Assembly: GCF_000467105.1 (NCBI RefSeq)
Contig: NZ_BATI01000024.1
Span: 1 to 64,000 of the forward strand
Direction of reading: 5' to 3'
From: Aquipseudomonas alcaligenes NBRC 14159
GTDB lineage: Bacteria > Pseudomonadota > Gammaproteobacteria > Pseudomonadales > Pseudomonadaceae
DNA: 64,000 nucleotides
Shown: positions 1 to 29,616 of the stretch, piece by piece
Layout of the letters: the number at the start of each line of letters is the position of its first letter
Numbering within the stretch: the stretch's first letter is position 1
Notes under the pieces: model-generated
What the model was told of the DNA's origin: nothing
Database searches by the model: none
Seen by the model: only the letters and a program-made list of their open reading frames with translations
Program-made: the position numbers and the translations under genes

Positions 1-1136
1 CCCTGCGTATTCGTATTTGTTCGCGCCCGTATACCGTTCAAAAATGAATCTGACTTGAAGTAATAGAAAAGATAAATTCCAAGAACCTTTGAGAGGTCTG
101 GCTTAATTGTTACGCAAGAATATGAGACCAAAAACTCAGCATCTATATCGACATAGGAGACACTGCCAATCGTTGCGTATCTAGCCATCACAACATCGCC
201 CTTCGAGGTTTTTATCCTTCCAGACAATCTTAAGTAATCGTCGTACGCAACCTGCTTACACTCTTCGAACTGGATATCGCTAACAAGCTCCATCAGATCT
301 CCGGTCATGACATAAGGTATGCCTTTATCGACCGATTGAGGCATGTAATGGTCGACGTCCCCTATCGCCTCCAAGAAATATTTTATGTTGCCGACGCGCC
401 AATGCACCGGCACATCGCCCAGCCACTTCACGCCTGAGTCTTTCATCGGCAGCGTCGGATCGAGGCCTTTAGTGACGGCGTGCGAGATCACGGCCTGGCG
501 CTTTTCCTTGAGCAGTTCGATCAGGCGCTGCTGCTCTTCGATCAGCGCGTCGATGCGCGCGGTTTCGTGGTCAAGAAAGCGGGCGATTTTGGTTTGTTCA
601 GGCTTTGGTGGCTCCGCGAAAAGCAAGCCACGAAAATCATCCTGGCCAAGATTCTGCATGCTTGCGCTGGTTCCAGAACAGGCCATCTTTACCTGCTCCC
701 GGTATTCCCGAGACTTGCTGAAGTAGAAAAGGAACTCTGGAGAATGATTTACCAAGAAATAAACTTGCCAGAGTCGGTCTGGCAGGAAAATTCCATTGGG
801 AGCTTCGGTAACCAGACCCGTGGCTCCCACCAGATCGGGAGTGTTCATCCGACTAACAATGAGCGTGTCTTTACGAAGCGGACAGCTGACTCTGCTCAGG
901 TCTTCATCATTCACCGTCTTGTTTTCGGCCCAGTCGAATTTTCCTGTGTAAACACAACTGGTTTTCAGAACGCCCAAGGAACCAGGCTCGGCTGGAAAAT
1001 CCGCCGCATTGACACTGGTGCCAGACTCGATACGTTCAATAGCCCGCTTGAGTGGATGCACAGCCCAATGCTCCGGCACCTCACCCAGCCACTCAACCCC
1101 GGAATCCTTGTACGCCAGATACACGGGAAACGTCAT
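1..1136 (-). CDS. hsdS: Type I restriction-modification specificity subunit HsdS (partial)
   Basis: This subunit recognises the target sequence of a type I restriction-modification enzyme and guides HsdM (and HsdR) to it. The frame is open from the ATG at 1136 to the window edge, so the C-terminus is missing. About 378 residues are visible. Two target-recognition units are seen, each opening with the same motif ([15 protein letters not shown] near residue 10 and [15 protein letters not shown] near residue 256), separated by a helical spacer ending in [20 protein letters not shown], as in classical HsdS. The start overlaps the hsdM stop in an ATGA arrangement, indicating translational coupling. 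The second half is AT-richer than hsdM, which is common for recombining specificity domains. hsdR is not in the window and may lie further left. Family assignment is firm. Confidence 0.93.
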
Positions 1137-2989
1137 GCCGACAGCCCCTCAATCATCTGCTTGATGCGGTCTGTGCAGGCCTTAAGGTCGCGATCGATCT
1201 CTTCCAGCGGACGCGGCGGCTGGAATACATAGAAGTGGCGATTAAAGGGAATCTCGAAACCGACCACGCCGACTTCGCCATCCTGCTCATCGCGCTTGCT
1301 TTCGTCGATCCAGGCATCCGGCACATGGGGCTTCACTTCGCGCTCGAAGTAGTCGTACACCGACTCGCCCAGCTGCACGTTTTCATTATCGCGCAGGCCG
1401 GCATCGGCTTCCGGCTGGCCTTTGACCATGCAGATATCCGCTTCCGGGTCGCGTTCGCTCAGGGCATTGAGGATGGCCTTCAGCTCGGGCGTGCTGGGGA
1501 ACACGTCGTGGGCATTGAGCGCCTTCTTAAGCAGCTTGCTGAACTGCTCGCGGTTGCGGTGCAGCTGGCTTTCGTCCATGGCCTGCAGGGCTTCGATCAG
1601 ACGCTGGCGGGCCGGGGCGTCCAGCTTTTCGATGGCTTTTTCTTCCAGCACTTTGTTGATGCGCTCGGCACTGGCCTGGAAGTTCAGGCGCAACGGGCGC
1701 TCGACGGTGATGCGCCGGTAGCCAAAGGCCTCGACCGGGAAGATCTTGCTCTGCGGGGTTGCCTCGAAGCGGCCATACAGGCGCACCAGTTCGTCGATTT
1801 GGTCTTCGGTGATGTACTGGCGCTTGCTGCCCAGCGATTTGCGCATCTTGGCAAAGTGCTGGCTGCCGTCGATCAACTGCACCTTGCCCTGGCGCACGGC
1901 GGCCTTGTGGTTGCTCAGCACCCACACATAGGTGGCGATGCCGGTGTTGTAGAACATGTCGGTGGGCAGGGCGATGATGGCTTCGACCAGATCGTTCTGC
2001 AGCAGGTAGCGGCGAATCTCCGACTCACCCGAGCCGGCGCCACCGGTAAACAGCGGCGAGCCGTTGAGGATGATGCCGATGCGCGAGCCGCCTTCACGCG
2101 GGTCACGCATCTTGCTGACCAGGTGCAAGAGGAACAGCAGCGAGCCATCGGACACACGCGGCAGGCCCGGGCCGAAACGGCCGTTGAAGCCCTTTTCGCT
2201 GTGCTCGTCGGTGATCTGCTTTTGTACCTTCTTCCACTCCACACCAAACGGCGGGTTGCTGAGCATGAAGTCGAAGCGGTTGTCGGCCAGTTGGTCGTCG
2301 GACAGGGTGTTGCCCAGCTTGATGCTGGTGACGTCCTGGCCCTTGATCAACATGTCCGCCTTGCAGATGGCGTAGGACTCGGGGTTGAGCTCCTGGCCGT
2401 GCAGCGACACGGTGACTTGCTGGCTGATGGACTGGATGTACTCGTCACCCTCGGAGAGGAAGCCGCCGGTCCCCGCTGTTGGGTCATAAATGGTGACGAT
2501 GCTGTTGGGCTTGAGCTTGTCGTCCTGCCCGGTGATCACCAGCGAGGTGGTCAGGTGCACGATATCGCGCGGGGTGAAGTGCTCCCCCGCGGTTTCGTTG
2601 GAGCTCTCCGCGAACTTGCGGATCAGCTCTTCGAAGATGATGCCCATGCCGAAGTTGCTGATGCGCTCGGGGCTCAGGTCCGTGGCAGCAAAGCGCTGCA
2701 CCACCTGATAGAGCAGGTTGGCGGCGGCGAGCTGCTGCACGAAGTCCTCGAAGTGGAAGTGCTCGAAGATCTCGCGGGCGTCCTTGCTGAAGGACTGCAC
2801 ATAGCTCATCAAGTCAGCGGCGGTCTGGGTGTCGGACAGCGTGCCGAGGGTCAGCTTGGAGGCATTGAAGAACTGCTGCCCGGCCGCGCGTAGCAACAGC
2901 CGCTCACGCACCAGATCAGGACGGCCTTCCTGCGCATAGGACTCACGGATCACCGCTTCCTTCGTCTGGGAATGGTTTTCCGTGTTCAC
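1133..2989 (-). CDS. hsdM: Type I restriction-modification DNA methyltransferase HsdM
   Basis: This is the N6-adenine methyltransferase subunit that works with HsdS. S-adenosylmethionine motif I ([10 protein letters not shown]) and catalytic motif IV (NPPFG) are both intact. The N-terminal helical HsdM domain precedes them, with an [15 protein letters not shown] segment typical of the family. I chose the GTG at 2989 (VNTENHSQ), which has AGGAG seven bases upstream, giving 618 residues. The frame extends upstream to 3055, but that extension is not HsdM-like. The gene overlaps hsdS by 4 bp. It lies immediately outside the left attachment repeat of the mobile element, so it belongs to the flanking chromosome or to a different neighbouring island. 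Confidence 0.95.
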
Positions 2990-3102
2990 GCAACTTCTCC
3001 TGGAACAGGACAGCAAAAGCACGAGTTTAACCTGACGGAAAGGTCGGGACCGCATCTCTGTGAGCGCGTTTACCCCGGTGTTTATGCCTTAGCCAAAAAC
3101 AA

Positions 3103-3380: not shown

Positions 3381-4790
3381 GTGTCCAAGGTAACGATCAA
3401 GCAATTGGAGGCACTGACAGCGCAAGATGACGGCAAGGTCTTCCGTGAGGATGGAGGACTGGTTGCTGAGGTGCGTGCCGGAGTCCGCGGGATCACAGTT
3501 CAGTTCAGCTATGAATTCAAGCTGGATGGAGCGCGCACCAGGAAGCGCTTGGGTAGTTGGCCGAAGAAAAGCTTGGCGCAAATTCGGTCTGAGCGAGACG
3601 AAGCCCGGGTACTTGTCACAAAAGGATTGCACCCCACGCTTGCAGCAAAAGCAGCACGGATCCAAGCGCAAGCGGCAATCGCCACCACTATTGCTGAAGC
3701 AGAGCGTGAAGCCGCAGAAAACAAGACAGTGGCCGATCTCTTTGATGAGTGGATACGTGACGGCGTCTCCCGCCAGGACGGCAATGCCGAGCTGATCCGC
3801 AGCTTTAAGAAGGACGTCCTGCCACTAGTTGGTAAGAAGCCGCTGCGCAATCTTACTGAAAAGGATCTGCTCGCTGTCCTTCGCTCAGTCAAATCTCGCG
3901 GCCTAAACCGCACCGTCGTTATCCGCAGCAAGGACATCGGCCAGATGCTGCGTTGGGCCGAGAAACGCAAACCATGGCGTGGTCTCATGACTGACGGCAA
4001 TCCAGCCGACCTGATAGACGTCAACAAGCTGCTCGACCATGACTACGAAGAACAGCGGGATCGACTGCTCTCCCCTGATGAGATTCGAGAACTGCGGGAC
4101 ATCCTCGAACGCCTGGAGAAAGACTACGAAGAGCTTCCTGCTGGCCAGAAGTATTCAGGCATTCGCCCGGTCAATACGCGCGTCCAGTGCGCGCTGTGGA
4201 TCTGCCTGAGCACCCTCTGCCGAATCGGCGAGTTACTTAAGGCCGAATGGCGCTTCGTGGATCTGGAGAAGAACACTTGGTTCATTCCGGCCGAGGCAAC
4301 CAAAGGCCATAAAGGCAAGCGTCAGGATCACCATGTGTTCTTGTCAGCGTTTTCCGTTGCGCAGTTCAAACGCCTTAAGAAAGAAACCGGCGATACGCCG
4401 TTCTGCTTCCCCAGCAGGGATGCTCGAAGCCACGTTGATACCAAGACTGTCAGCAAGCTCATTGGAGACCGCCAATGTCGATTCAAGAGCCGCAGCAAGC
4501 CACTGGCTGGCCGGCATCATGACGACTCACTGGTACTGAGCAAGGGAACCAAGGGTGAATGGACCCCGCATGATCTGCGCCGCACGGGCGCTACCATGAT
4601 GCAGGAGCTGGGTGTAACACTGGAAATCATCGACCGCTGCCAGAACCACCTGCTGGGCGGCTCGAAGGTCCGTCGACATTATCTGCACCACGATTACGCC
4701 AAGGAAAAAACTGAAGCCTGGCGCTTGTTGGGCGAGAAGTTAGAGTCGATTCTTGCCGGGAGCCCGGCAGCTGCTATCCAGCATCAGTAG
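3381..4790 (+). CDS. int: Tyrosine-type site-specific integrase (P4/bacteriophage family)
   Basis: This enzyme should integrate and excise the element at the tRNA-Pro 3' end. The protein has 469 residues, starting at GTG 3381. An N-terminal arm-binding domain of unknown-function-4102 type (about 1-90) is followed by a SAM-like core-binding domain (about 110-220) and the catalytic domain. Catalytic residues are recognisable: Arg in TLCRIGELL (about 280), Lys in EATKGHKGKR (about 308), the HDLRR box (about 396) and the nucleophilic Tyr in VRRHYLHHDY (about 434). It lies 187 bp from the left att and points into the island. This is the end opposite the intact tRNA, a less common layout. Its 3' end overlaps the convergent toxin gene by 7 bp. 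Confidence 0.95.
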   Translation: MSKVTIKQLEALTAQDDGKVFREDGGLVAEVRAGVRGITVQFSYEFKLDGARTRKRLGSWPKKSLAQIRSERDEARVLVTKGLHPTLAAKAARIQAQAAIATTIAEAEREAAENKTVADLFDEWIRDGVSRQDGNAELIRSFKKDVLPLVGKKPLRNLTEKDLLAVLRSVKSRGLNRTVVIRSKDIGQMLRWAEKRKPWRGLMTDGNPADLIDVNKLLDHDYEEQRDRLLSPDEIRELRDILERLEKDYEELPAGQKYSGIRPVNTRVQCALWICLSTLCRIGELLKAEWRFVDLEKNTWFIPAEATKGHKGKRQDHHVFLSAFSVAQFKRLKKETGDTPFCFPSRDARSHVDTKTVSKLIGDRQCRFKSRSKPLAGRHHDDSLVLSKGTKGEWTPHDLRRTGATMMQELGVTLEIIDRCQNHLLGGSKVRRHYLHHDYAKEKTEAWRLLGEKLESILAGSPAAAIQHQ

Positions 4791-5077
4791 CCAGCTTTTT
4801 TTTGATGGCGAAAGACCAAGACATAGGCCGTGTCATCTGCGCGCTCATAGCGGTAAAGCGCAACGTAACCTGAGTCACCAAACTCGATGATTAGCTCACG
4901 CAGCTCTGGCAGATCTGGAAATGGACGCCCTACTTCCGGACTTTCCTCCAATCGAGCGAATTGACGCTCGATTGCTTGTGAAGCACGGCGCGCGACCTGC
5001 GGATCTTTATCGGAGAGGAATCGTCGGCAACGCTCCAAGCCCTTCGCCGCGCCTTCAGTGACAATCAGTCGTGGCAC
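4784..5077 (-). CDS. RelE/ParE-family toxin
   Basis: This 97-residue protein fits the RelE/ParE toxin fold (mRNA interferase or gyrase inhibitor). It has an N-terminal MPRLIVTEGAAKGLERCRRFL helix region, a central RPFPDLPELRELIIEFGDSGYVALYRYE core and a C-terminal YVLVFRHQKKAGY strand with basic residues and a terminal Tyr. It overlaps the upstream RHH antitoxin gene by 13 bp, the usual arrangement for a coupled pair. RelE and ParE activities cannot be told apart from sequence alone. It probably helps stabilise the element. Confidence 0.88.
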   Translation of the reverse strand: MPRLIVTEGAAKGLERCRRFLSDKDPQVARRASQAIERQFARLEESPEVGRPFPDLPELRELIIEFGDSGYVALYRYERADDTAYVLVFRHQKKAGY

Positions 5078-5337
5078 TTGGGTAGCTCTGCCTCAGCATC
5101 TGTACCCCAGCTACCAAGCCAGGTGCGAGCCTCCTGGCCGGTCAAGTGCTGGCCGGTTTCCTGGTATGCAGCCCAAGATGCCAGCGCTTCTTGTTTGAAG
5201 CTCTCACGGGCCTCCTCTCGCTCGACGTACTGGGTAATCGCCTCACGCATGATCCAGTGAGATGAGCGTTGGCGCAAGTTGGCCAAATTCTGAATGCGCC
5301 CTTTCAGCTCGTCGTCAATTTTGATGGAAGTGGCCAT
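5065..5337 (-). CDS. Ribbon-helix-helix antitoxin (CopG/ParD-like)
   Basis: This 90-residue protein begins with a short strand MATSIKIDDEL followed by two helices ending in SSHWIMREAITQYVEREE, a ribbon-helix-helix DNA-binding domain. The C-terminal half (about 50-90) should bind and neutralise the toxin encoded downstream. It probably also represses its own operon: a perfect 15-nt palindrome lies 20 bp upstream of the start codon (5357-5371). The gene order antitoxin-toxin and the 13-bp overlap support the pairing. Confidence 0.88.
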   Translation of the reverse strand: MATSIKIDDELKGRIQNLANLRQRSSHWIMREAITQYVEREEARESFKQEALASWAAYQETGQHLTGQEARTWLGSWGTDAEAELPKCHD

Positions 5338-5356
5338 GGTCAGCCCTCAGTTATCT

Positions 5357-5371
5357 AAAGGTATTACCTTT
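5357..5371. promoter_or_regulatory. Palindromic operator of the toxin-antitoxin operon
   Basis: The sequence AAAGGTATTACCTTT is a perfect inverted repeat around a central T, 20 bp upstream of the antitoxin ATG. RHH antitoxins usually bind such short palindromes to autoregulate. Binding is inferred. Confidence 0.6.
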
Positions 5372-5463
5372 GAATATCGTAGCAGAGAAAAGAACTATGC
5401 TGCCTATGAAAACGCCGATGGGCATAACAGCGAATGACCCAAACCAAGCCGGGCATCTGCTGC

Positions 5464-5708
5464 TTACAGGTCTTCCAAGGACACCTGGATGGATTTTTCA
5501 GCTGCCCGAGCCCTCACCAATGAAGCCAGCTAGAAATCGTCCAGGCGCTCGAGTATTTGTTCGTACAGCTCTGCTGGCACCAGATATGCCATAACACGAT
5601 CCTGTTCGAGCAAGACTACAGGGGTACTTGCGGCTTCAGCCAAGATGCGGGATGGGTTTTCTTCAGATCAGAAATGCTGACTGCTGCCTGAGAGAAGATG
5701 TTTTGCAT
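5464..5708 (-). pseudogene. Decayed Phd/YefM-type antitoxin gene
   Basis: From the ATG at 5708 the reading begins MQNIFSQAAVSISDLKK, a typical Phd/YefM start. It then shifts frame at an A-run in AAGAAAACCC, consistent with loss of one A. In the shifted frame it continues NPSRILAEAASTPVVLLEQ and AYLVPAELYEQILERLDDF. An in-frame TAG follows, and after it LASLVRARAAEKSIQVSLEDL runs to a final TAA. All parts match an antitoxin of about 80 residues, so one frameshift and one nonsense mutation have inactivated it. No RelE-type partner is recognisable downstream. Confidence 0.75.
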
Positions 5709-6029
5709 AGAAAGCCTCTTTGCCCCTATTGCCCGAGGGTTTCAGGACGAATCTGGATGAAAGATCCCTACGCCGGATGAGCTTGAAGCCCACACGGCTT
5801 TTCAAATATAGATAGGCCAAACTTTTATTTGTTAACAGGGCCGGACACTGATGGTGGACTGGGCAGAGTTGTGCACGAGAGAAAATGACCATCCACAGCC
5901 AGCAACAAAGTAGCCGGTAGCAACAGGCAAAAACCGGCCAAAAGCAGCCATCGCGACTCATCGGACGTCATCGTCCTTGGGCATATCACCCGTCGTTACG
6001 CTTACTGGATACCGCTTGCGCCAGTTTCG
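5709..6029. other. Intergenic stretch without a recognisable gene
   Basis: This region lies between the decayed antitoxin and the DUF262 operon and holds no convincing gene. It contains CCGGCCAAAAGCAGCCATCGCGAC at 5934-5957 in part, a motif that recurs in inverted orientation around the IS insertion site near 10550/12226. It is probably debris of earlier insertions. Confidence 0.5.
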
Positions 6030-8060
6030 CTAGTCGATATTGAAAGCCCTTTGATAATGTCTCCGCAGTGCCGACAGCATGGCTGAATGATGAGCATCGG
6101 CCACGGCCTCTCCCCACTTATCGTTTGAATAGATCAGGTCCATCTTCAAGGAGTCGGGCCGCTTCTCATACTCCCGCTTGTTGAGGAATCGCTGGCGCTT
6201 TTCGTTGAAGGGCAGATTGCCGTATTCCGAGTTGATACTGCGCGAGACCAGCGCGAGATTGCCAAAGCGGTCCAGCCATTCCTTCGAGACCGTATTGGTA
6301 TCGGTCGCCTGTGGATTCTGCGGCGAAATATGCTCTACCGAGTTCTTCGCGGTGAAACGGAAATTGCCCCAGAATTCACGGTCAGCTTGTTGTTCATACC
6401 AGAGCACGAAGTCCAGCTTGTAGAACCAGTAATGCGCAAATCTGACGCCATCGTTCTCCGCCAGCGCCGATTCGAACTGCAGTACCGAAGCGTTACGCCA
6501 AGGGGTATCCATGAAGCGGCGGCTACGTGCGACCAGCGAAGAATCAGTCACTTCGCCAAGCAACTGGTTATCCAAATGGCACAGGAAGCCGTAGTAACGC
6601 TCGATTTCACCGCCGCCACCGCGCACTGTATGCGCATGCTTGTGGATGAAGTACAGGAAGGGGGTCAGCCAGTAATGGGTGGTAATTTCCTGCGTGTGAT
6701 ACAGCATGCTCTGCAGCAACGACAGCCCCTGATGCAGAGTATTGTCGCGGCTACGATTGATATAGCGCTTGTCTTCGCTGGCGGAAATCGAAGTGTGGCA
6801 GACCTGATGGATTTCCTCATCGCCTTGGTCGACCCACTTGATCACGTACTCGTCCCACAGCACACGCATACGCCAGAGCAGATCGATGAAGCCTTGTGCC
6901 CTCGCCGCACGCTGTGCTGGCTCCGCTGGCACCAGCAAGTAGGCCTCGAACAGGGCGAGCAGCTGCCGGTCCAGCACACGTGGCAGGTCCTGCGGCCCTT
7001 GCTCCTTCAGCCAAATACGCAGGACATGAAGTAGGAAAAGCGGAAAACCGATGATGCTGCGCGCCCAAGGGGCTTCGCCGTCGTCCTCGGTGATGGTTGT
7101 TCGCGCCGGGCCGGTATCACCAATCGAGCCACCAACAATGTCCTCCAAAGTCAGGCGATCGTCGTCATCCGTTTGCGTGGCGTCGGCCTTGCGCCCGAGC
7201 AAGCCATGCACCGCGCCGGCATGCAACAGTTGCCCCTTGCTGTAGAGATCTCCCAGCCGATGCGCATCCAGCTGGGTTTCCAGACACAGATTGCGCTCGA
7301 CGAAACCGCTCATGTCGGCACAGGCATTCCACAAGGCCGCGTAGCGGGAACGGTTTTCCGCGGGGATGTCGTGCAACAACCTAGCCTTGAGGATCTCATG
7401 ATGCTGTAGCTGGATGCCGCGGTTGTTGATGACCTCGAACAGCTTGTTCAGGTCCATGCCCTCGGGCACCTGTGTTAGCACCAGCGAGACAGTGCGATAC
7501 ACGAAGCCAGCCAGCGCCTTCAGATATTCATCATCCACAGGCCCGCCGTCCGCACGCTTGTACGTCTGCGCGAAGGAGGCCATCAATTGCTGAGCCTCTC
7601 TCATGCTCCGGGTATCGATGGCTTCACTGTTCACCGCCTTGCCGCCCGGCATCATGCTGGCAAGGAAGTCATTGACCTCCTCGCGGATCGAGAACTGTAG
7701 ACGCGGAATCGTCCCGTTCTTCAGCACCACCCTGCTGAAGTCTCCCATCACCTCGCGCCATACAGGCACAGTGCTGAGCATCCATAACGTGGTGAAACGC
7801 TGCTGCCCATCGATCAGGTCGAAGCGACGCATGCCCTGGTCGCGGTCTTCAGCGGTGGTCTTTTCCACCAACAACGTGCCGCCCAGGAAAAACTGTGTGT
7901 CTCTGCGATCGAATGCATTTGCCATGTCAGTCAGAAGCGTCTTGATCTGGTCATCACCCCACACGTAAAGGCGCTGGTAGATCGGCACGTTGAAACACCA
8001 TGCGGCGTCTTCTCTGTTGGTCAGCTGCTCCAGGGTGCAAAGGCTGGAATCAATGCTCAT
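6030..8060 (-). CDS. DUF262/DUF1524 protein (GmrSD-like putative modification-dependent nuclease)
   Basis: This 676-residue protein has an N-terminal DUF262 (ParB/sulfiredoxin-like) domain with the signatures PIYQR (about 26-30) and IDGQQRFTTL (about 83-92), which in GmrS-type proteins bind and hydrolyse nucleotides. The C-terminus carries a DUF1524-like HNH region: SVEHISPQ near residue 573, then FGNLALVSRSINSEYGNLPFNEKR, as in GmrD and SspE. The family includes type IV restriction enzymes that attack modified phage DNA. It starts at ATG 8060 with an AGGAGG site and overlaps the end of the upstream DUF262 gene by 11 bp. It is the last gene of a three-gene operon. A defence role is inferred; the substrate is unknown. 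Confidence 0.85.
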   Translation of the reverse strand: MSIDSSLCTLEQLTNREDAAWCFNVPIYQRLYVWGDDQIKTLLTDMANAFDRRDTQFFLGGTLLVEKTTAEDRDQGMRRFDLIDGQQRFTTLWMLSTVPVWREVMGDFSRVVLKNGTIPRLQFSIREEVNDFLASMMPGGKAVNSEAIDTRSMREAQQLMASFAQTYKRADGGPVDDEYLKALAGFVYRTVSLVLTQVPEGMDLNKLFEVINNRGIQLQHHEILKARLLHDIPAENRSRYAALWNACADMSGFVERNLCLETQLDAHRLGDLYSKGQLLHAGAVHGLLGRKADATQTDDDDRLTLEDIVGGSIGDTGPARTTITEDDGEAPWARSIIGFPLFLLHVLRIWLKEQGPQDLPRVLDRQLLALFEAYLLVPAEPAQRAARAQGFIDLLWRMRVLWDEYVIKWVDQGDEEIHQVCHTSISASEDKRYINRSRDNTLHQGLSLLQSMLYHTQEITTHYWLTPFLYFIHKHAHTVRGGGGEIERYYGFLCHLDNQLLGEVTDSSLVARSRRFMDTPWRNASVLQFESALAENDGVRFAHYWFYKLDFVLWYEQQADREFWGNFRFTAKNSVEHISPQNPQATDTNTVSKEWLDRFGNLALVSRSINSEYGNLPFNEKRQRFLNKREYEKRPDSLKMDLIYSNDKWGEAVADAHHSAMLSALRRHYQRAFNID

Positions 8061-9546
8061 GGCGACCTCCTAGAGAAGCTTTCAAAAACGCCTCGATCCA
8101 TTGATATTTGTCCGCAAGGCTGCGGCATTCAGAGTCCGTCTGCTCCCGGTAAAACGCCAGGACAGCCCGTTTGTATCGACCTTGCACACCATTGCCAACT
8201 TCAATCGTTTCCTCGGCATACAACGATGCCACGACCAATTGGCGCTTCTGCAGAAAGTCCAGTACCTGCTTCGGGTGATAGCTCTGCGCGATCACATCTA
8301 GCAGGTTCAGCTCGGCCAGCCTGAAGAAGTTGGCGGCGGTTTCCTGCTTGACCAGTTGTTGCTTCAGACGAATCGCACCTAGCAGAAACTCCAGGCGCAG
8401 AGCAAAAGCAGTCAGTTGCTCGACATCGAACTGATCCACATACACCAAGCTGCAGAGCATGAAGATCTCGCGCAGATACTCTTGGTTGTTGCACAGCAGC
8501 TGTCGATAGATCGCGCGGAACGTACTCACTTGCGAGCAGGGTGCAGGGGCATTCATCAGCCTTTGCAGCAATGCAGCGTACTTGTCGGCGTAGAGAAAAA
8601 AGCCCACGCCTTCATGGATGGGCTGGCGCAGCGCGATGGGCAGGTTCGCGGGGTTCTGGCTGACACGCAGTTGGTTGCCCTGCAGTACATACTCTCCATC
8701 ACCCTCCAGCGTAAGCGCAGTCGCCAGCCGGTTGGGCCGGGTGGCATAGAGCGGCACGCTGTCGACGCTGCTGTGGCTGTCTGCGTCATGGTGCCAAGTG
8801 TCGTTCTGGAACTCTGTCAGCAGCGTTTCGTGCCTGCCCGCTGGTGTTTGCGCACCACGCCAGCGGCGCGCACGCCAGAGAAAACGATTGAAGAGGTTGG
8901 GGGCAAAATCCTGTCCCGGCGACAGTACCGCGGGCAGACGTTGCAACGCTTCCCAGCGCTCGGCGCAGTGCTTCTGCAGAGCAATCTTGAGCTTGCCCTC
9001 GCCGTCCGCATGATCGATCGCCCGCAGGTGATAGGCCTTGAGCAGATCGGTGGCCCGCAGGGGCACGCCGCGATTGTTCTGGGTATCGAAAAAGGTGAAG
9101 GCAAGGTCGCTGCTGCCCACTTCGATCACTGTCAGACGCAGCTTTTCGATGATCTCCTGTGCTATAGCCTCTTGTTGCTGCAACGCCAGCATCCCTTCAC
9201 GGATATGCCGTGCGGACTGCCCCGAATAGCTGAGCGCCTGGCCCGCGGGCAGCTTGCCGGTAGCGCGGTGATACAGCAGCGACAACGCCGTGATGCGCTG
9301 CTGACCATCGATGATGAACCTTTTCGACTGGCGCGCATCGCGATGCAGTAATACCGCACCAATGTAGTAAGGCAAGCGATTGTCTGGCTGGCCTGCGAAT
9401 TCCACGAGATCACTGTTCAACTGCAGCAGCTTGTCCGGCCCCCAGACAAAGCCTCGCTGGTAACTGTCCAATGCCAATGGCGTACCTGCCTTCAGCAGAT
9501 CGGCGAAGGCCAGGGTGCTAACCTGAACAAGAGATTCCTGTGTCAT
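8050..9546 (-). CDS. DUF262 protein without HNH tail
   Basis: This 498-residue protein has an N-terminal DUF262 domain with DSYQRGFVWG (about 28-37) and FIIDGQQRITAL (about 77-88). It also has FFDTQNNRGVPLRATDLLKAYHLR (quoted in parts: FFDTQNNRG, LRATDLLKAY), the third conserved block of the family. The C-terminal half is mostly helical and lacks the EHI-x-P motif of DUF1524, so it is probably the nucleotide-sensing partner of the following DUF262/DUF1524 protein rather than a nuclease. The stop overlaps the next gene by 11 bp and the start follows the acidic protein gene by 16 bp. It may form a hetero-complex with its neighbour; this is inference. Confidence 0.82.
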   Translation of the reverse strand: MTQESLVQVSTLAFADLLKAGTPLALDSYQRGFVWGPDKLLQLNSDLVEFAGQPDNRLPYYIGAVLLHRDARQSKRFIIDGQQRITALSLLYHRATGKLPAGQALSYSGQSARHIREGMLALQQQEAIAQEIIEKLRLTVIEVGSSDLAFTFFDTQNNRGVPLRATDLLKAYHLRAIDHADGEGKLKIALQKHCAERWEALQRLPAVLSPGQDFAPNLFNRFLWRARRWRGAQTPAGRHETLLTEFQNDTWHHDADSHSSVDSVPLYATRPNRLATALTLEGDGEYVLQGNQLRVSQNPANLPIALRQPIHEGVGFFLYADKYAALLQRLMNAPAPCSQVSTFRAIYRQLLCNNQEYLREIFMLCSLVYVDQFDVEQLTAFALRLEFLLGAIRLKQQLVKQETAANFFRLAELNLLDVIAQSYHPKQVLDFLQKRQLVVASLYAEETIEVGNGVQGRYKRAVLAFYREQTDSECRSLADKYQWIEAFLKASLGGRHEH

Positions 9547-9562
9547 CTATCGAATTCCTTGC

Positions 9563-10294
9563 TCAGCTCTCTTCCCAGCGTTTGCGCAACGTCCTGATCC
9601 GGGCATCACCGCGAAGCGCACGCCGATCTGGTCCGCAGAGCGCGACCGAGCCCGCCGGCAGGCCAAAGACCTCCTCGATGGCGGCCCGAATGCTGCTGAC
9701 CTTCGCATCCGAACGTGCGGCCCGATATCGCGCTGCTCTGCGTTCGTTAGCGGTCACGCTCTGGTCTGCATCCTGCTCATCTTCGGCCTCCGCTTCCTCG
9801 GCCTCCCAGTCCTCGTCCTCTTCCTCTTCGTCTTCCTCCAGAGGTTGCGGATCATCTTCGGCCTCATCGGTCAAGTCAGCTAGGTTCTGGCCGTTGGAAT
9901 ACCAAGTGTTGGCGTCCTCCGGTTCCCATACCAATCCACCTTCGACATGGAACGCTCGAAGGGCGGCGGCAGACGACACGTAATCGCTGAACCGCGACTT
10001 CACCGCCGGCAATCGCTCGAAGCCAGCGCCCAAGGCCAGCAGAACCTTCCTGGGGCCCGCAACCAGCAGAAACTCAGACCAGCCCGGCTCACGGAAATTG
10101 CTGCTGGCAGAAACGTACAGATAGAGGGTGGCGCGAAGTGAGGCATCCTGTTCGGCCAACCGAGTCAGGACCTGCATCACGGTGTGGTGGAAACTGAAGC
10201 CCGCATTCTCGATGGAGTCCGAGTCGACCTCGACAGTGGGCATTGGCGAGCCGCTGTTGACGAAAGCGAGTTCCGACACTGATTTCCTGATCAT
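9563..10294 (-). CDS. Acidic protein of unknown function, first gene of the DUF262 operon
   Basis: I do not recognise this 243-residue protein. Residues about 1-130 look globular (FSFHHTVMQVLTRLAEQD, LYLYVSASSNFREPGW). Residues about 140-175 are an extremely acidic linker (PLEEDEEEEDEDWEAEEAE). The C-terminus is basic (NERRAARYRAARSD and GPDRRALRGDARIRTLRKRW) and contains a VFGLPAGSVALCGPD segment. The layout suggests a nucleic-acid-binding tail tethered to a globular head, possibly a DNA-mimic or adaptor. It starts at ATG 10294 after AAGGA and leads the operon with the two DUF262 genes, so it is probably part of the same system. Confidence 0.7.
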   Translation of the reverse strand: MIRKSVSELAFVNSGSPMPTVEVDSDSIENAGFSFHHTVMQVLTRLAEQDASLRATLYLYVSASSNFREPGWSEFLLVAGPRKVLLALGAGFERLPAVKSRFSDYVSSAAALRAFHVEGGLVWEPEDANTWYSNGQNLADLTDEAEDDPQPLEEDEEEEDEDWEAEEAEAEDEQDADQSVTANERRAARYRAARSDAKVSSIRAAIEEVFGLPAGSVALCGPDRRALRGDARIRTLRKRWEES

Positions 10295-10546
10295 TGCATT
10301 CGTTCCTTGAACGATTCGTGAGTGGGCCGTCGCGATTTGCGGCGATGTTAACCGCTATTTCGCACACCCTCCGATTGGATATGGAGAGGTCACGCTCGAT
10401 AGTGGCAATTAAATAGCACATTGCATAAATGGTGACGGGATAGCGCAGTAGCGGCAAGCCCTGAAAGTACATGCCCATGCTGGGGCGAATCCTGGAACAG
10501 GATTACCGTGAAACAGGCTCGGCGTCAGTTTGCAATGGCTGCTTCT

Positions 10547-12225
10547 GGCCCAGGCTGTGTAAAAACGCTGGCATCGACCTTGCTGTGATTTGATGGGTTC
10601 AAATCAGCGGGGGGATACCGATGAAGCGTTTTATCCAGGGACAGCATCGAGGCCAAAGCGCGTTGCTTCCCGAGAGCCTGGATGACTACGTGGCGGACAC
10701 CAACCCGGTGCGGGTGGTCGATGTTTTCGTCGATGAACTCGACCTTGGCCAACTGGGTTTCGGGGGTGTCATCCCGGCTGAAACTGGTCGGCCCGCCTAC
10801 CATCCTGCCGACCTGCTGAAGATCTATATCTATGGCTACCTCAATCGCATCCAATCCAGTCGCCGCCTTGAGCGAGAGGCTCAGCGCAACGTCGAGCTGA
10901 TGTGGCTGACCGGGCGTTTGATGCCGGACTTCAAGACCATCGCCAACTTCCGCAAGGATAATGGCAAGGCAATCCGCGGCGTTTGTCGGCAGTTCGTGGT
11001 GCTGTGTCAGCAGCTCGGGCTGTTCGCCGAGGCACTGGTGGCCATCGACGGCAGCAAGTTCAAGGCGGTCAACAATCGTGACCGCAACTTCACCAGCGCC
11101 AAGCTGCAACGTCGGATGGAGGAGATCGAGTCCAGCATCAGCCGCTACCTGACGGCGCTAGATACTGCTGACCGTCAGGAGCCCGCAGTGGCACAGGCCA
11201 AGGCAGAGCGCCTGCACGGCAAGATTGCCACCCTGAAAACCAAGATGCAGGAACTGCGAGACATCGGGGCTCAGCTTGAGTCCGTCCCGGACAAGCAGAT
11301 CTCCCTGACCGATCCAGATGCCCGCTCGATGATGACTCGCGGCACCGGCCTGGTTGGCTACAACGTCCAGGCTGCGGTCGATACGAAGCATCACCTGATT
11401 GTGACGCACGAGGTCACCAACAACGGTGTCGACCGCGACCAATTGAGTGCCATGGCCAAGCAGGCACGGGACGCGATGGGCGTGGAGTCACTGTCGGTAG
11501 TCGCCGACCGGGGCTATTTCAAAAGCGAGGAAATCCTCGCCTGCCACGAAGCAGGCATCACCGCCTTCGTGCCCAAGGCTAAGACATCGGCCGCCGCAGC
11601 AGCGGGTCGCTTTGGCCGTGATGATTTCATCTACGACGCGGCCCATGACGAGTACCGTTGCCCAGCCGGAGAACGCTTGGTCTGGCGATTCTCGACGGTT
11701 GAGAAAGGTCTAAAACTGCACCGTTACTGGAGTTCGCATTGCCAAGGTTGTGCGTTGAAAGATCAGTGCACGCCGAGCGCACAGCGGCGGGTGAGTCGCT
11801 GGGAGCACGAGTCGGTGCTCGATGCGATGCAGTCCCGCCTAGATCAGGCTCCGGAGATGATGCGCATCCGCCGCCAGACGGTTGAGCATCCGTTCGGGAC
11901 ATTGAAAGCCTGGATGGGCGCCACTCATTTCCTCACCAAGACGCTCGACCGAGTGAGCACGGAAATGAGCCTGCATGTGCTCGCCTACAACTTCAAACGG
12001 GTGCTGAACCTGCTGGGCAATAGTGCGCTAATGGCCGCGATGAGGGCCTGAACCCCCATTGGCAGCCCGTTGAACTCGTCCCCAAGCATCGCAGAGCCAC
12101 ACTTGCCCGAATTGGCTGAATAACTCGGATCGACACACCAGTGGCCCGTAGGGACGCTGGGCGCCGCTAAAACAACCCAATATCCAGCTATCCATCACCC
12201 GCTGCGTTTTTACACGGTCTGGGCC
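10547..12225 (+). mobile_element. IS1182-family insertion sequence with GGCC target duplication
   Basis: The element proper spans 10551-12221 (1671 bp). Imperfect 18-bp terminal inverted repeats (CAGGCTGTGTAAAAACGC at 10551-10568, and its counterpart at 12204-12221 with two differences) are flanked on both sides by GGCC (10547-10550 and 12222-12225). GGCC is a 4-bp palindromic target duplication. One full-length transposase gene lies inside. It inserted between the DUF262 operon and the glycine-zipper gene without interrupting a recognisable gene. Confidence 0.88.
10621..12051 (+). CDS. tnp: IS1182-family DDE transposase
   Basis: This 476-residue transposase moves the surrounding insertion sequence. 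It has the DUF772-type N-terminal domain (RPAYHPADLLKIYIYGYLN, FKTIANFRKDN), a coiled middle insertion and a DDE catalytic core: Asp in AIDGSKFKAVN, Asp in VVADRGYFKSEEI and Glu in VEHPFGTLKAWMG. A Cys-rich stretch (CQGCALKDQC) lies before the last acidic residue, as is usual in IS1182/IS5-like enzymes. The frame is intact and full length, so the copy may still be active. Confidence 0.95.
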   Translation: MKRFIQGQHRGQSALLPESLDDYVADTNPVRVVDVFVDELDLGQLGFGGVIPAETGRPAYHPADLLKIYIYGYLNRIQSSRRLEREAQRNVELMWLTGRLMPDFKTIANFRKDNGKAIRGVCRQFVVLCQQLGLFAEALVAIDGSKFKAVNNRDRNFTSAKLQRRMEEIESSISRYLTALDTADRQEPAVAQAKAERLHGKIATLKTKMQELRDIGAQLESVPDKQISLTDPDARSMMTRGTGLVGYNVQAAVDTKHHLIVTHEVTNNGVDRDQLSAMAKQARDAMGVESLSVVADRGYFKSEEILACHEAGITAFVPKAKTSAAAAAGRFGRDDFIYDAAHDEYRCPAGERLVWRFSTVEKGLKLHRYWSSHCQGCALKDQCTPSAQRRVSRWEHESVLDAMQSRLDQAPEMMRIRRQTVEHPFGTLKAWMGATHFLTKTLDRVSTEMSLHVLAYNFKRVLNLLGNSALMAAMRA

Positions 12226-12336
12226 GACTCCAGCCAGTTCGCACTCAGTTAGCGCTGCTGAAAATTAGCCATTCGATCCAAAAAAATTTCAACCACACAT
12301 TACCGCAATGACATCAGCACCAAGGAGGTTCGTCTC

Positions 12337-16934: not shown

Positions 16935-17657
16935 TCAAGGCTGGTCGCGCAAAGCAACGAACTGGTTACTCGGTCCTTCCGACCGCAGCATCAGGTTTGC
17001 GCTGTTCGACACCAAGTAGGCCAGGGGCCGCGTCAAGTTGAACGGGAACAGCACGGGCAGCGACTGCAGGCTGGGCACTGAGACGGGCTTGCCGGCGTAG
17101 CGCACGGCCGCCTCGATCAACCAGGCCGTCAGTCCGTCGTTGACGATCGCGGTTGGTGCCAGTCGGATGACGCGCTTGCCTTTCTCAACCCGCTCCACAG
17201 CTCCCCAGCTCGCCTGGCTCTGGATGACCATGTTGGTCATGCGCCGAGTGCCTTCGCGCTCTCCGTAGGTTTCACTCATGCGGCGGTGTACTTCGGCAGA
17301 CGCGCAATCACCCTGGATGGCGGACAGGCGGCCCACCAGCTCGGCCACCTTGCCAAAGAACGGGTACGTCGCCACAGACATGCCCCAGCACAGCGCCGCG
17401 ACCGGTATGTTCGGCTGCGTCTTGTGGATGGCCACGCCGCGATCCGCGTAATCGACCAGTTCGGCACGTGGCTCCAGCCACAGCCGGTTAAGTACGGTGC
17501 GTGTTTTCTTCTTGGCTTCCGCGCCAAGTCCGGCTGCATCGAGCAGTGCATTCAGATCATCTAGTCCAGCTGCGCCAGCACGAACATTCAGCGCCGCAGC
17601 CGCCCAATCAAGCTGAATGAACCGATCAAAGCCTATTTTTGGTGCTGATGAATTCAT
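16935..17657 (-). CDS. brxA: BREX type 3 terminal gene, brxA candidate
   Basis: The 240-residue protein closes the BREX operon, the position brxA (DUF1819, NusB-like) takes in type 3 systems. I could not confirm DUF1819 motifs by eye. The N-terminus (FDRFIQLDWAAAALNVRAG) and helical middle (RRMSETYGEREGTRRMTNM) suggest an all-helical, DNA-associated protein, and GAVERVEKGKRVIRLAP could be a winged segment. The ATG overlaps the pglZ stop by 4 bp, so translation is coupled. A divergent BrxA is the best reading; an unrelated operon partner is possible. Confidence 0.6.
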   Translation of the reverse strand: MNSSAPKIGFDRFIQLDWAAAALNVRAGAAGLDDLNALLDAAGLGAEAKKKTRTVLNRLWLEPRAELVDYADRGVAIHKTQPNIPVAALCWGMSVATYPFFGKVAELVGRLSAIQGDCASAEVHRRMSETYGEREGTRRMTNMVIQSQASWGAVERVEKGKRVIRLAPTAIVNDGLTAWLIEAAVRYAGKPVSVPSLQSLPVLFPFNLTRPLAYLVSNSANLMLRSEGPSNQFVALRDQP

Positions 17658-19669
17658 TCGGTACCAATCACATAACTGACTTTCACAAAGGGCACGATCA
17701 ACTCTTCGATCGACACCCCGCCGTGGACCACCACCTGCTCGCCCTCCGGCACAAAGGCGGTTCGTCCGCCTGCGAATAGGGGCATGAAGTTCGCGGGTAG
17801 TCCAGCGATGTCAAACCTGACTGTGGTGGGATAGGCCGCAGCGGAATCGGCCAGCAATGGCTCACTCCTGTAGACCCGAACACGCTCGCCGCGCGTCTCT
17901 GCAATCACGCCCTGGCTGGGCCTGCCGACGCCGGTGGACTCCACGTTGCCGTGGTCCGCCGTGAGATAGATGTGGTATCCCTTGTCCAGCAGCAGCGAGA
18001 ACAACCGGTCGACGAAACCAGTCGTCAGCCAGTTCCCGATCCACATCGCTACGTCCTTCTTGGACCGCTCCTTGTGGAGCCGATCGTCAACCTCATCGAT
18101 GACCAGGCCCACCACCTTCGGACGGCGGTCGTTCAAGTCCGCCTCAAGCGCGTCCAGTTGATCAACCTGGCGCAGCGCTCGTCGGTACATCACCTCATTC
18201 GAGTTGACGCCTTCGTTCTGCCAGAACGTCTTCCACAAGGATTCCTCCTTGTCCGTTCGGTCGATGGAGTCGTCGAACTCACGCGGTTTCAGGCCGGAGA
18301 ACAGCGCTTGGCGCGACACCGATGTCACAGTCGGCAGCCATGCAAACGCGGTTCCCTCGTCGAAGGCGAAACGTTTCGTGGTGGCGATCAGGCGCTCGCG
18401 GATCTGCACCCACTGGTCGAAGGCCAGCCCGTCGAAGACCAGCAGAGCGACCTTGGTTTCCCCTGCGGACCGCCGATGGCGCAAGAAGCGTGGCACGTGG
18501 TGCACCATCACCGGACCTTTGGTCACCGGCTGCAGGATCAGGTCGGCGTAATGCTTGGCTGCGACCCAGGCTCGCAGACCCTCGTCTGATTGCGCCTGCA
18601 AGGTCTTGATCCGCTCTCGAATCACCGGCAGGTGTTCGCTGCCTTCCGTGCCTGGCAGACTATGCGTGCGGGCCAGGATCTCACCGTAGCGTTTGGCGAA
18701 CTCACTCCAGTCCTTGTGCGAAGAGGCCGCTGTTGGGGTCGTCTCGATTAGGCCATCGATGCCTTTGAGCACCAAGGCCTGCAGTGCCGCCGGGTCCTGG
18801 ACGATCCCGGCCTTGATCCAACTCGGCATCCCCGCCGGAACGCTGTGCACCGCCAGCGGATGCAAGCTGCCGTCGAGAAACATGGAATCGACCAGCACCT
18901 GTACATCGGAGTGGTCGAACGGAATCTCGATCTTGGCGACGTAGTCTGGTGGTGGCGGTTCGCCAGTGCGGGTTCCGTCCAGCCCCTGAGTCGTCAGATA
19001 GCGGTACCACGCATCCTGCACCACGCGTAGCAGCGCGCTCTTGGATGCCAGCCATGTGGCGACGGGAAGGTCCGTGAACAGCCCCTTGCCCTGAATGATG
19101 CCTGCCGCGTGCTGAGCGAACAGGGGTGGCAACGAGCGGTTGGCGAAGTGCATTCGCAGTAGCTCACGCCAGAAGTCGACCGGGTTGCGAATGGATCTCG
19201 GCGCCAATTGGTAGACGTGTTCGAGGATGAAGTCCTTCGACTCGTTCTCGCCCCTGGCCGACTGCAGCTCGGTCTGGTGGGCAAGAAACAGCCCGGCAAA
19301 GTGCTCCGGCTCGACTTGCTGTACCGCGCTGTAAGCCAGCTTCGGGAATAGCTCCGCAAGGGAGAGCCGGACCACACGACCGTGATGCACGATGTCCCAC
19401 GGTAAGACATTCGCATCGGCGCTGCGCAGATGCAGAACCAGCGAGGGCGCAGGCCCTTGCTCACCGCGATCCCATGCGGCGCGGTAACGCTCCTCATATT
19501 CCGCGCGGAAGGCAAATGGGTCCTCGTACAGCATCAGCTCGAAGCCGCGACCGCGCAGCTCGGTCAACAGCCTCTCGTCGAGCAACACATCATCAGGGTC
19601 GCACGCCACCCAGAGTCGGGTGAGATCGGCCGTGAAGTGGCTGAGAATGCGTTCTGACCACTGGCTCAT
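17654..19669 (-). CDS. pglZ: BREX alkaline-phosphatase-superfamily protein PglZ
   Basis: PglZ is the hallmark protein of BREX phage-resistance systems, needed for exclusion and, in some systems, for methylation. The 671-residue product has the PglZ domain in its C-terminal half: LLVFDGLAFDQW (about 412) with the metal-binding Asp, the LPTVTSVSRQALFSG block, LTADHGNVEST with Asp/His ligands and HGGVSIEELIVPFV near the end. The N-terminal 300 residues are the variable region. It overlaps brxHII and the brxA candidate by 4 bp each, so the genes are tightly coupled. Confidence 0.93.
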   Translation of the reverse strand: MSQWSERILSHFTADLTRLWVACDPDDVLLDERLLTELRGRGFELMLYEDPFAFRAEYEERYRAAWDRGEQGPAPSLVLHLRSADANVLPWDIVHHGRVVRLSLAELFPKLAYSAVQQVEPEHFAGLFLAHQTELQSARGENESKDFILEHVYQLAPRSIRNPVDFWRELLRMHFANRSLPPLFAQHAAGIIQGKGLFTDLPVATWLASKSALLRVVQDAWYRYLTTQGLDGTRTGEPPPPDYVAKIEIPFDHSDVQVLVDSMFLDGSLHPLAVHSVPAGMPSWIKAGIVQDPAALQALVLKGIDGLIETTPTAASSHKDWSEFAKRYGEILARTHSLPGTEGSEHLPVIRERIKTLQAQSDEGLRAWVAAKHYADLILQPVTKGPVMVHHVPRFLRHRRSAGETKVALLVFDGLAFDQWVQIRERLIATTKRFAFDEGTAFAWLPTVTSVSRQALFSGLKPREFDDSIDRTDKEESLWKTFWQNEGVNSNEVMYRRALRQVDQLDALEADLNDRRPKVVGLVIDEVDDRLHKERSKKDVAMWIGNWLTTGFVDRLFSLLLDKGYHIYLTADHGNVESTGVGRPSQGVIAETRGERVRVYRSEPLLADSAAAYPTTVRFDIAGLPANFMPLFAGGRTAFVPEGEQVVVHGGVSIEELIVPFVKVSYVIGTE

Positions 19670-22494: not shown

Positions 22495-22496
22495 GT

Positions 22497-25286: not shown

Positions 25287-25332
25287 CAGTCGTTCCTCAA
25301 ATTCTTGTTGTCATGGTCGAGCCATCACCGTG

Positions 25333-28300
25333 TCACTCGATCACGAAGCGCAGCTTGGTCGAATCCTTGCCCTTGCAGCGCTCGTTCATGAAGGTATCGA
25401 AGCGCTTGCGAAGGTCGTCCGGCGTGGCCGGCGAGCCGCCTTGCAGTAGCGCCTGCTTGATCTCGTCGCCCTTGACCGCGATCTTCTCCAGCCCCGACAG
25501 CGCCTCTTGCACGGCATTGGCGAACTCCGTGGTCATCGGGTCTGGCAACTTGCGTGAGGTGAGGAAGGCGTCGATCAGTTTCTTGGACGCGGGCGGCAAT
25601 AATCCCAGGCTGTCCTGCGTGAATGGGTCTTCCAGGTTCTCCAGCAGAGTCTGCTGCCAGTTGGTCATCAACTGATCCAGATCGTCATCCAGCTTGTGCA
25701 GGCGGTTGGCTGCCGGGATCAGCTCCAACTGCTCGGCAGAAGGGCGGAACTGGCAGTGCGGGCAAACGGCGGCCGTGATCAGCGTCGGCTCATCCAGCGA
25801 GGAACAACTCTTCAGGCCGTTGAGGGACTCCTCGAACGCGGTGAGCTGGCTGGTGGGCATTAGCGACACGCCGGCGAGCACCCGCAGCGCCAGCAGGCGG
25901 TCGTCCTTGCGCAGGGCGTTGCGGGTCTTGTCCTCGGCCACACCCAGCCGCGCCTTGCTGTGGCTGGCGATGTAGGCGGTGATGTAGTCCTTCTTGAGCT
26001 GGTTGAGCGTCTGCCGGTATTCGGAAGCGTGCTCGGCCGTGCGGTCTTGGCTCAGCTTTTCCTGCAGGGCCTTGCGGGCCGCCTCTGCCTGCTTCACCCA
26101 CGGATGCTCGGCGGGCAACACCATCTCGGCCTGCGAGAGGTAGGACGCCGTGCTGCCCAACTCCACCACCAGTTCGAGCAGACGCTCGACGGCGGCCAGG
26201 ATCTCCAGATTCTTCTTCTGGCTGTCCAGGTCTTCCTGCGTGACGCGCAGGTTCTTGAGCTTGCCGACGGTGTTGTACGGCGCCAGCGACTCCGTGAACT
26301 TCTTCAGCGAATCCAGCCGGGCGTGCCAGTCCTTGGCTTCTTCTTCACGAAGCAGGTTCTGGCCCCAGAAGCCGAGCTTGCCTTGCTGCAGGTCGGAGCC
26401 AGCCTTGAGCACACGCGGTACCAGCGCGCTGACTTTCTCCTGCAGTTTGATGACCGGCTCGGTGTCGCCCTGGCTGGCCTTCTGGGCCAGACCGGACGGT
26501 AGGTCGAACAACTCGAACAAGGCACGCAGCACCGCGAGGTTAATCTCCTTGGGCGCCTCGACGTGCTTGAACTGCTTGAGCTCTTCCAGCGAACGCTCTG
26601 CGAGTTGCACCAGCTTGCCGGAGTCGATCTTGTCTCCGGTGATCGACAGCACGATGTCGCCGGAGTAGACCAGGCCACCCAGCACCGTAACCAGCAGATC
26701 TGGCTCCAGCCGGTACTTGATCGGGGCGAAATATTCCACATCAGACGTGCCCGACAGCAGTTCGCTGCGGTTGAGCACCTGGCCGTGGCCCTTGGCCTTG
26801 AGTCGGTTCAGCACCTCCTGCGCGTAGCGGGAGTTGGCGGGATCGACACGGTCACCATCGAGCAGCTCCAGGGCATCGAGGATGGCAGCGGCGTCCTTGG
26901 TGCGGGTGCCTCCGGCTAGGGCGCGCAGGGCATTGCCCACCAGTTGCTTGCGGTTGGCCTCGGTGACCAGCACCGAGAAGGTGGGGTAGTCGGGTGAGAT
27001 GTCGGCAAAGCGCTGGCCCAGTGCCAGGCCGGAGACGATGTTCACCACGTCGCGGAAGTTGATGCGCTCATCCGGACCCAGTCGCGCGCGGTCGCGCAGG
27101 GACACGCCCTTTGACCAGTCCTGCAGCGTCTTGGTCTTGCCCTGGTAGGTGACCTCGAATGCGGTCATCTGCTTTTCCTGCAGCCACTTGCTCATAGACC
27201 GCAGTGAGTCCTGCGCCTTGGACAGGTAGATGGCCTTCGCGCCACCGCTGGCGGTGGAGGCCAGATCCAGTGCCGCAGCGTATTGCGACAGGTGGCGCTT
27301 GTAGTCCTCGTCCGGTGACTTCAGGCGAAAGAACACTTCGTCGGCCAGGTTGTTGTCGCTGAACTTCGGCTTGTCGAATGGCTGGATGAAGTAGATGTAG
27401 AAATCGCGCTCGGGCTGGGCCGTGGGCCGGTCATTCGGGGCGCCAAAGAACAGGTAGCCCATGCGCTCGACGCGGCGCTCCTGCCACTCGATCTGGTACT
27501 GCCAAATCTGGAAGCCGGGGTAACGCAGATCGTCGCTGCATTCCATCAGCGCCTTGATGGCGCTGTAGTAGGCGCGATCCAGCGCGTCGTCGGACAGGGC
27601 TTCGGCGCGCTTCTCGATCTGCGCGTCGTAGTCGATGTCTTTCTTGAGGTCGAGGTAGTACTGCTCGGTGTCCGGTGCCTTGGAGATGAACTGGCCGTTG
27701 ACGGTCTTGAGCACCTCGCGCAGCACGGTCTGCACCATCGACAACAGGTTCTCGGCCGGATCGCCCGGCATGTCTTCCACGCCCGGCTGGAACAGACACA
27801 GGGCATCGCGCAGCTCGGCGGCCGTGGGGCCGATGGGCACATGGATGTCGCCGCCCGTGGTCAGCCGGTGGACGGCCAGCGCGTTGATGACCCGCTGCGC
27901 CATGGCTTTGTAGGCCGGGCGCGTGAAGGCCTGCTGCACGCGGGACTCCAGCACCTCGGAGACGCGCATGACTTCCTTGATATTGGGGTCAGCGCGCAGG
28001 ACCGAGTTGGCCTTGATGGTGTTCCAGAAGCTCTCGTAGCTGATGAACAGCGGTTTGTCGGCGGGCACTTCCTGGTCGAGGATGGCCAGCATGGCGGCCT
28101 CGATGGTCTTGAGCGCGCCGCGCTTCTCGGTGAAATGGATCTGCTCGAAGGTCTTCAGGTAATCCGGGTGAACCGGGAACAACCGCACGTACTCGTCCAT
28201 GCGCTCGTTCATGGAGCCGTAGAACTTGGCGAACGGCGTCAGGTATTCGCGGATCTTGTTTTGCTGGTCAGCCGTCTTCTTGAGCAGGCGCGCGGAGACG

Positions 28301-29073: not shown

Positions 29074-29112
29074 ATGGTTCTCTCTTCCCTGCTCTCTACT
29101 TTCAAATTCAGG

Positions 29113-29568: not shown

Positions 29569-29616
29569 ACTAATTCCCTTTCCTGGGCCGACCACAGTTG
29601 ACAGATCGGAGTGAAA

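Follow-up and report, generated by a model that had tools for sequence, protein, structure and literature searches.

Systems built from two DUF262 proteins, one of which carries a nuclease tail, have been published as TgvAB (PMC11411939), GrwAB (PMC12137116) and GmrSD-ECOR17 (PMC12373910), and none of their single genes was found to be protective; what is said here of published systems refers to the available sections of the cited papers. In this enzyme family, the DUF262 domain binds and hydrolyses nucleoside triphosphates (NTP) and the DUF1524 domain cuts modified DNA; for the single-chain enzyme BrxU, an electropositive cleft of about 21 Å in width was reported (PMC8565348). Why the nuclease half of TgvAB needs a DUF262 partner was called unclear in print (PMC11411939). 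Here we examined a stretch of 64,000 nucleotides (nt) from Aquipseudomonas alcaligenes NBRC 14159 (contig NZ_BATI01000024.1), referred to in full as the window, in which a minus-strand operon at 6030..10294 encodes an acidic protein followed by two DUF262 proteins, A and B. An initial annotation of this DNA had held that known GmrSD and SspE enzymes are single polypeptides or an S/D split and not two DUF262 paralogues plus an acidic partner; as regards the two paralogues, the three published pairs do not support this. It had also proposed that the three genes are a defence operon and a candidate unnamed system. The operon does look like one, and no name for the trio was met in the libraries or in the mainly open-access DUF262/GmrSD papers searched, partly by titles and abstracts; neither was a description of the acidic gene.

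The three open reading frames (ORFs), their coordinates and their junctions were confirmed as first annotated. The acidic protein (243 amino acids (aa); 9563..10294), encoded by the first gene, matches no family above cut-off in the libraries searched and has 10 full-length homologues. After a gap of 16 nt comes A (498 aa; 8050..9546), a TgvA-like protein with DUF262 (PF03235, GmrSD_N, 8.4e-24) and DUF7834 (PF25202, 6.3e-44) and no DUF1524, which carries the motifs YQR, DGQQR and FDTQNNRG. Overlapping A by 11 nt, B (676 aa; 6030..8060) is a putative TgvB-like nuclease that combines DUF262 (PF03235, 1.3e-27) with a C-terminal His-Me/HNH domain at 6075..6458 (PF07510, GmrSD_C, DUF1524, 3e-18); thus, Pfam agrees with the earlier claim of two DUF262 proteins with an HNH-like tail on one only. 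Its motifs are YQR, DGQQR, FEVINNRG, EHI at 576 and FGN at 599, the Asn of the His-Me finger being read off the sequence and not from an alignment to TgvB. Against six relatives, the ratio of nonsynonymous to synonymous substitution rates (dN/dS) was 0.13–0.15 for A and 0.10–0.14 for B. At one related locus (L049, 11689-13062), B ends at 457 aa, before the nuclease domain, while the acidic gene and A stay open.

The motifs QR, DGQQR and FxxxN in both DUF262 domains, and the His and Asn in B, are shared with TgvAB, the motifs being named as in PMC12137116 and PMC11411939. The nearest outgroup of the window A group is the pair at locus L090, with 62% identity for A and 67% for B, which sits in an hsdM-hsdS-A-B-hsdR array whose hsdM, hsdS and hsdR were each recognised by Pfam. 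Since this is the five-gene layout published for TgvAB (PMC11411939), the A-B pair is, as judged from sequence, a TgvAB-like two-protein system; the likeness is one of architecture, gene order, motifs and the L090 layout, with the TgvAB proteins VC1767 and VC1766 known by description only.

Our preferred reading, to which we give a probability of roughly 40%, is that A and B together act as a Type IV (modification-dependent) restriction enzyme of the two-protein, TgvAB-like kind and that the acidic protein is its dedicated accessory subunit, most likely a restraint. By analogy with the described enzymes, the DUF262 domains of both proteins would recognise modified DNA as well as bind and hydrolyse NTP, and the His-Me/HNH tail of B would cut that DNA. 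The acidic protein would be made first, from the same operon; its basic C-terminal domain may dock on the A-B complex or on DNA, and its acidic linker might sit in the positively charged cleft for DNA and be driven out by modified DNA. Such a restraint would be useful because induction of both GmrSD-ECOR17 genes led to gross toxicity (PMC12373910). It is suggested by the first place of the acidic gene in the operon, by a linker charge that is kept while the linker sequence drifts, and by the electropositive cleft of BrxU (PMC8565348). A targeting subunit is nearly as likely a role. As the initial annotation had suggested, the acidic protein may be a DNA mimic, inhibitor or regulator; what bears on a DNA-mimic inhibitor is its composition. 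A conserved partner from the same operon would offer a direct handle on nuclease control, as its removal could leave the nuclease toxic, inactive or mis-aimed.

Conservation of the trio among relatives

In the genus sample (398 genomes), a profile of the acidic protein detected 9 genomes; the protein is complete in 7 of them, and in 2 only its C-terminal domain is present. A and B lie directly behind the acidic gene in 6 of the 7, the exception being G400 (locus L051). A search with A retrieved 15 genomes of the same sample at E ≤ 1e-15. Identity reaches 78% or more in 6 of them, and these are the same 6 acid-A-B genomes, which bears out the link of the acidic gene to the DUF262 pair that the initial annotation had proposed, and the other 9 A homologues (at most 62% identity) come without the acidic gene. 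At least two further trios, both in Pseudomonas (L035 and L036), were identified in a genome_contigs scan that started from the acidic protein and so favours its carriers by design. The trio was thus found in the same order in at least 8 loci. All 8 share the 11-nt overlap of A and B. Between the acidic gene and A, 5 loci have a junction of +16 nt and 3 one of −16 nt; in these 3, the TTG start of A is the choice of the ORF finder only. The kept order and overlap, and a dN/dS of 0.125-0.207 for the acidic gene against six relatives, speak against a chance arrangement. The fixed junctions in 8 loci with differing neighbours, together with the 6 of 6 close A homologues that follow the acidic gene, argue that the three genes form a unit.

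Another 18 A loci, with 24–62% identity to the window A, were more distant: 9 came from the genus sample and 9 from the class sample, in which 45 of 369 genomes matched A and 9 of the 44 other genomes were examined. A profile search at E ≤ 1 found neither the acidic protein nor its C-terminal domain at any of the 18, although the contig of L060 breaks off within A and its upstream side is unseen. Type I restriction-modification (R-M) genes precede A-B in 5 of these 18 loci (L055, L062, L090, L091 and L092), with HsdM confirmed by Pfam in each. On a tree of A, which holds 24 proteins from the 26 A loci (A is incomplete in L056 and L060, which were left out), presence of the acidic gene needs a single change, with a support of 99/99; the tree was rooted at its midpoint and has several long branches. 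Because one change is enough, the pattern fits one gain of the acidic gene followed by spread of the trio.

Purine-rich stretches resembling ribosome-binding sites precede the starts of all three genes (AAGGAA for the acidic gene and for A, AGGAGG for B). An upstream region at about 10295..10415 (minus strand, limits approximate) is kept in relatives, as seen in a DNA alignment with L035 and L036. A promoter scan of 5300-10640 gave no sigma-70-like site there, a weak test that says little.

The acidic protein and its C-terminal domain

An alignment of 11 full-length sequences divides the acidic protein into an N-terminal domain (residues 1-140, boundary approximate; 9875..10294), an acidic linker (residues 141-185; 9740..9874) with 25 D/E in 45 residues, and a basic C-terminal domain (residues 186-243; 9566..9739) with the pattern IExVFGLPxGSVxL...LRxRW. 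A linker and a basic C-terminus had been noted at first and were borne out by the charge counts, a 47-residue stretch with 26 D/E having a net charge of −25 and the final 58 residues one of +7. Against the six relatives, dN/dS was 0.125-0.207 for the whole protein, 0.10-0.19 for the N-terminal domain and 0.26-0.53 for the linker; for the C-terminal domain it was 0.02-0.06 in 5 of 6 comparisons, the sixth being saturated. The linker sequence drifts, but its region keeps a net charge of −21 to −25 in all 9 Pseudomonas-type copies; the L034 and L073 homologues have less charge there or carry it elsewhere. Under a null model of random amino-acid changes, the mean linker charge was less negative in 8 of 8 comparisons, with 41-43 aligned columns set against simulations of 45 codons, a mismatch that works against the effect.

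No Pfam, NCBIfam or PADLOC family matched the acidic protein above cut-off, nor did any match to PHROGs fall below E 0.2; across the family libraries, the best E-values were 0.041 (Pfam) and 0.039. An AlphaFold model of the C-terminal domain alone was all helix and weak, with a predicted local distance difference test score (pLDDT) of 71.0 and a predicted template modelling score of 0.50. A ubiquitin-like fold, alike in pattern by eye, was rejected (hhalign probability 0.3, E 0.21). So was a KH-like match (ribosomal protein S3), whose whole-sequence E of 0.0011 came from a short stretch found twice in one chain, each at E 7.1.

The same C-terminal domain was detected in a second setting. In L052 and L053 it ends a protein of 178 and 179 aa, respectively, with a different N-terminal part, which follows, at 31 and 121 nt, a single-chain gene of 564 aa with DUF262 and DUF1524. 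No description of this two-gene GmrSD arrangement (L052, 7764-10026; L053, 9460-11815) was met in the papers to the extent available. The domain also ends an 87-aa protein with a lysine- and alanine-rich, histone-like start (L104, 9779-10042), whose gene lies beside an SNF2-methylase gene on the opposite strand. Two full-length homologues of the acidic protein stand with other genes. On the Vibrio ponticus plasmid pVPon1 (L034, 4397-8777), one follows a 121-aa ORF and a gene with weak likeness to CHAT/C25 proteases, near annotated SIR2 and ParA-like genes, in what is possibly a separate defence cluster. In L073 (7253-16907), the other is flanked by a type III-like methyltransferase gene and by a gene for a UvrD helicase with a weakly RelE/HigB-like N-terminus, with a Res-like gene further upstream.

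DUF262 genes adjoin 10 of the 14 clear loci of the C-terminal domain, of which 8 are perhaps from one gain; the 14 are all that were found and not a census, in searches that covered 1997 of 2000 genomes, some of them more than once. Outside the genus, clear genomes with the acidic protein or its C-terminal domain were G367 in the class sample and G833 in the family sample (2 of 147 genomes). In the order sample, 2 of 145 genomes matched, its own included; the other match, in G1008 (L105, E 2e-6), was kept apart from the clear ones, and 170 genomes of the phylum sample gave no new genome by profile. In the class sample, 9 of 369 genomes, its own included, matched the C-terminal domain at E ≤ 0.01. 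The matches in four of these (G048, G079, G150 and G262) fell inside long ORFs of unrelated proteins or amid ribosomal genes and were dropped; the clear matches also exclude G031, G362 and G363, which were unexamined, and a broken copy on contig 3 of G367 (L074) was left as is. Among plasmid records there was one match to the acidic protein and none to A at E ≤ 1e-20. Plasmid matches to the 178-aa protein, namely three from Variovorax (N-terminal part only) and one from Roseomonas (39 residues), were dropped, one Variovorax site and the Roseomonas site being inspected. Phage records held no match to the acidic or the 178-aa protein, E. coli DNA none to the acidic protein, and viral_contigs no relatives of the acidic protein, its C-terminal domain, the 11-row alignment or A.

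We consider it possible, at somewhat less than an even chance, that the C-terminal domain defines a family of accessory proteins, so far undescribed and exchangeable between restriction nucleases, that would control the time or place of cutting. With the N-terminal domain and acidic linker it would serve two-protein GmrSD (perhaps also type III R-M, as in L073), and with another N-terminal part single-chain GmrSD, as in L052 and L053. Were the domain a general cofactor of restriction enzymes, it would be a new marker for finding such systems.

Several findings weigh against restraint by a dedicated subunit. The absence of the acidic protein from the 18 other A-B loci indicates that such enzymes do not generally need it, and TgvAB alone protects E. 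coli (PMC11411939). The charge-retention test fell below 0.05 in just 3 of the 8 comparisons, which are not independent, and the AlphaFold model of the acidic protein, from a three-row alignment, was poor (pLDDT 47.4). The partner in L052 and L053 has the C-terminal domain without a strongly acidic linker; therefore, filling of the cleft cannot be the common role of this domain.

That last point, and the basic C-terminal domain being the most constrained part, make a targeting or recognition subunit nearly as good an explanation, though on balance a doubtful one. Here the C- or N-terminal domain would bind modified or foreign DNA or recruit A-B to it, and would thereby have broadened or altered specificity once A-B had moved out of a type I R-M operon. 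Recurrence of the domain on a different N-terminal part behind single-chain GmrSD genes, its place in the lysine-rich protein of L104, and the full-length homologue beside type III-like Mod/Res genes agree with it. On the other hand, sequence searches gave no DNA-binding or modified-base domain in the acidic protein, and published DUF262 enzymes, as far as described, sense modification without such a partner.

Restraint is also weakened by 3 of the 11 full-length homologues (L034, L051 and L073), near which no DUF262 gene lies within the 17-20 kb viewed. The initial annotation had regarded unlinked relatives as grounds to give up its proposal, and this applies only in part; these three are unlinked, while the trio is kept in 8 loci. 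They would suit a gene that is independent of the pair, has a role of its own in defence, anti-defence or regulation and is carried along with A-B in Pseudomonas islands as a hitch-hiker, as would a single gain behind all 8 linked loci. We regard this as unlikely, because the junctions (+16 or −16 nt and 11 nt) are kept in 8 of 8 loci while the outer neighbours change and because a second architecture with DUF262-DUF1524 genes exists. Finally, the acidic protein could be a decoy for phage-injected GmrSD inhibitors such as Ip1-3 of T4, which carries three subtype-specific ones (PMC12373910), leaving A-B free to act. Binding of these inhibitors by an acidic protein would have to be assumed, homologues also sit with unrelated systems and nothing in this analysis supports it directly, which makes the decoy quite improbable.

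The island and its cargo

The window island holds an integrase gene (3381-4790) and a BREX-3 set (16935-29664). Between the trio and BREX-3, immediately upstream of the operon, lies an insertion sequence (10527..12245, plus strand) with 42-nt inverted ends and a DDE transposase gene at 10621-12051 (DUF772/DDE_Tnp_1). Viewed over roughly 6-10 kb per side, the neighbours of the trio vary: Zorya I genes ZorABC in L050, HEPN-like, 510-aa and helicase genes in L035, L036, L046 and L047, and dynamin-like, patatin and SNF2 genes in L048. Thus, the trio does share an island with BREX, as first annotated, but the association looks incidental, and BREX as a needed partner was rejected.

A HEPN-like gene (RNxxxH; weak Pfam match) lies upstream of 4 of the 8 trios (L035, 8166-8813; L036; L046; L047), and another (L057, 11198-11836) directly behind an A-B pair of 49% identity without the acidic gene. 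Short remnants were identified in L048, and the gene was not found in the window, where the insertion sequence lies. As the gene is whole in 4 trios and not at the other 4, it was rejected as a fourth member and taken for an optional neighbour. In L094 (12470-14077), another A-B pair is followed, after 18 nt, by a homologue (43%) of the 510-aa gene.

A WYL-domain regulator at 31025-31900 shares 72% identity with one in the vicinity of the L035 trio, and a common island backbone with interchangeable defence cargo is therefore probable; similar-looking ORFs of 290/291 aa occur near L036, L046, L049, L050, L051 and L098. Other genes in the window encode, next to the integrase gene, a ParE toxin paired with a ribbon-helix-helix antitoxin (4784-5337), Peptidase S24 (UmuD-like) and Y-family polymerase (UmuC-like) proteins (32182-33937) and, just outside the integrase, a type I R-M methyltransferase, HsdM (1133-3055).

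Comparison with described systems

Among described systems, ptuXYZ is likewise a three-gene operon with a DUF262 protein, but its other two genes encode a PtuA-like ATPase and a PIN/BECR RNase (PMC11980606). BrxU and single-chain GmrSD share the DUF262 and DUF1524 chemistry and an occurrence beside BREX, but act alone as one polypeptide (PMC8565348); B has the single-chain GmrSD architecture by Pfam, yet its gene overlaps that of a second DUF262 protein. GrwAB also consists of two DUF262 proteins acting together, with the nuclease gene first, a partner with further C-terminal domains second and no third member in the description available (PMC12137116). The window differs from it in having A before B and, as A, a 498-aa protein with DUF262 and DUF7834.

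GmrSD-ECOR17 (GmrS1 and GmrSD2) resembles the window in its two DUF262-type (ParB_n) proteins, one with HNH, whereas its available description includes no acidic partner (PMC12373910). The closest in layout is TgvAB of Vibrio cholerae VPI-2, with two DUF262 proteins, DUF1524 on the second only and A before B (PMC11411939). Unlike the five-gene TgvAB layout, the window pair lies outside a type I operon and has the acidic gene in front; since 1,341 matches to tgvAB were reported against 79 to the five-gene operon (PMC11411939), embedding in a type I operon is not a required feature of TgvAB. The two-DUF262 pair is thus of a kind already known, and what the window adds to it is the acidic protein, a putative exchangeable accessory protein.

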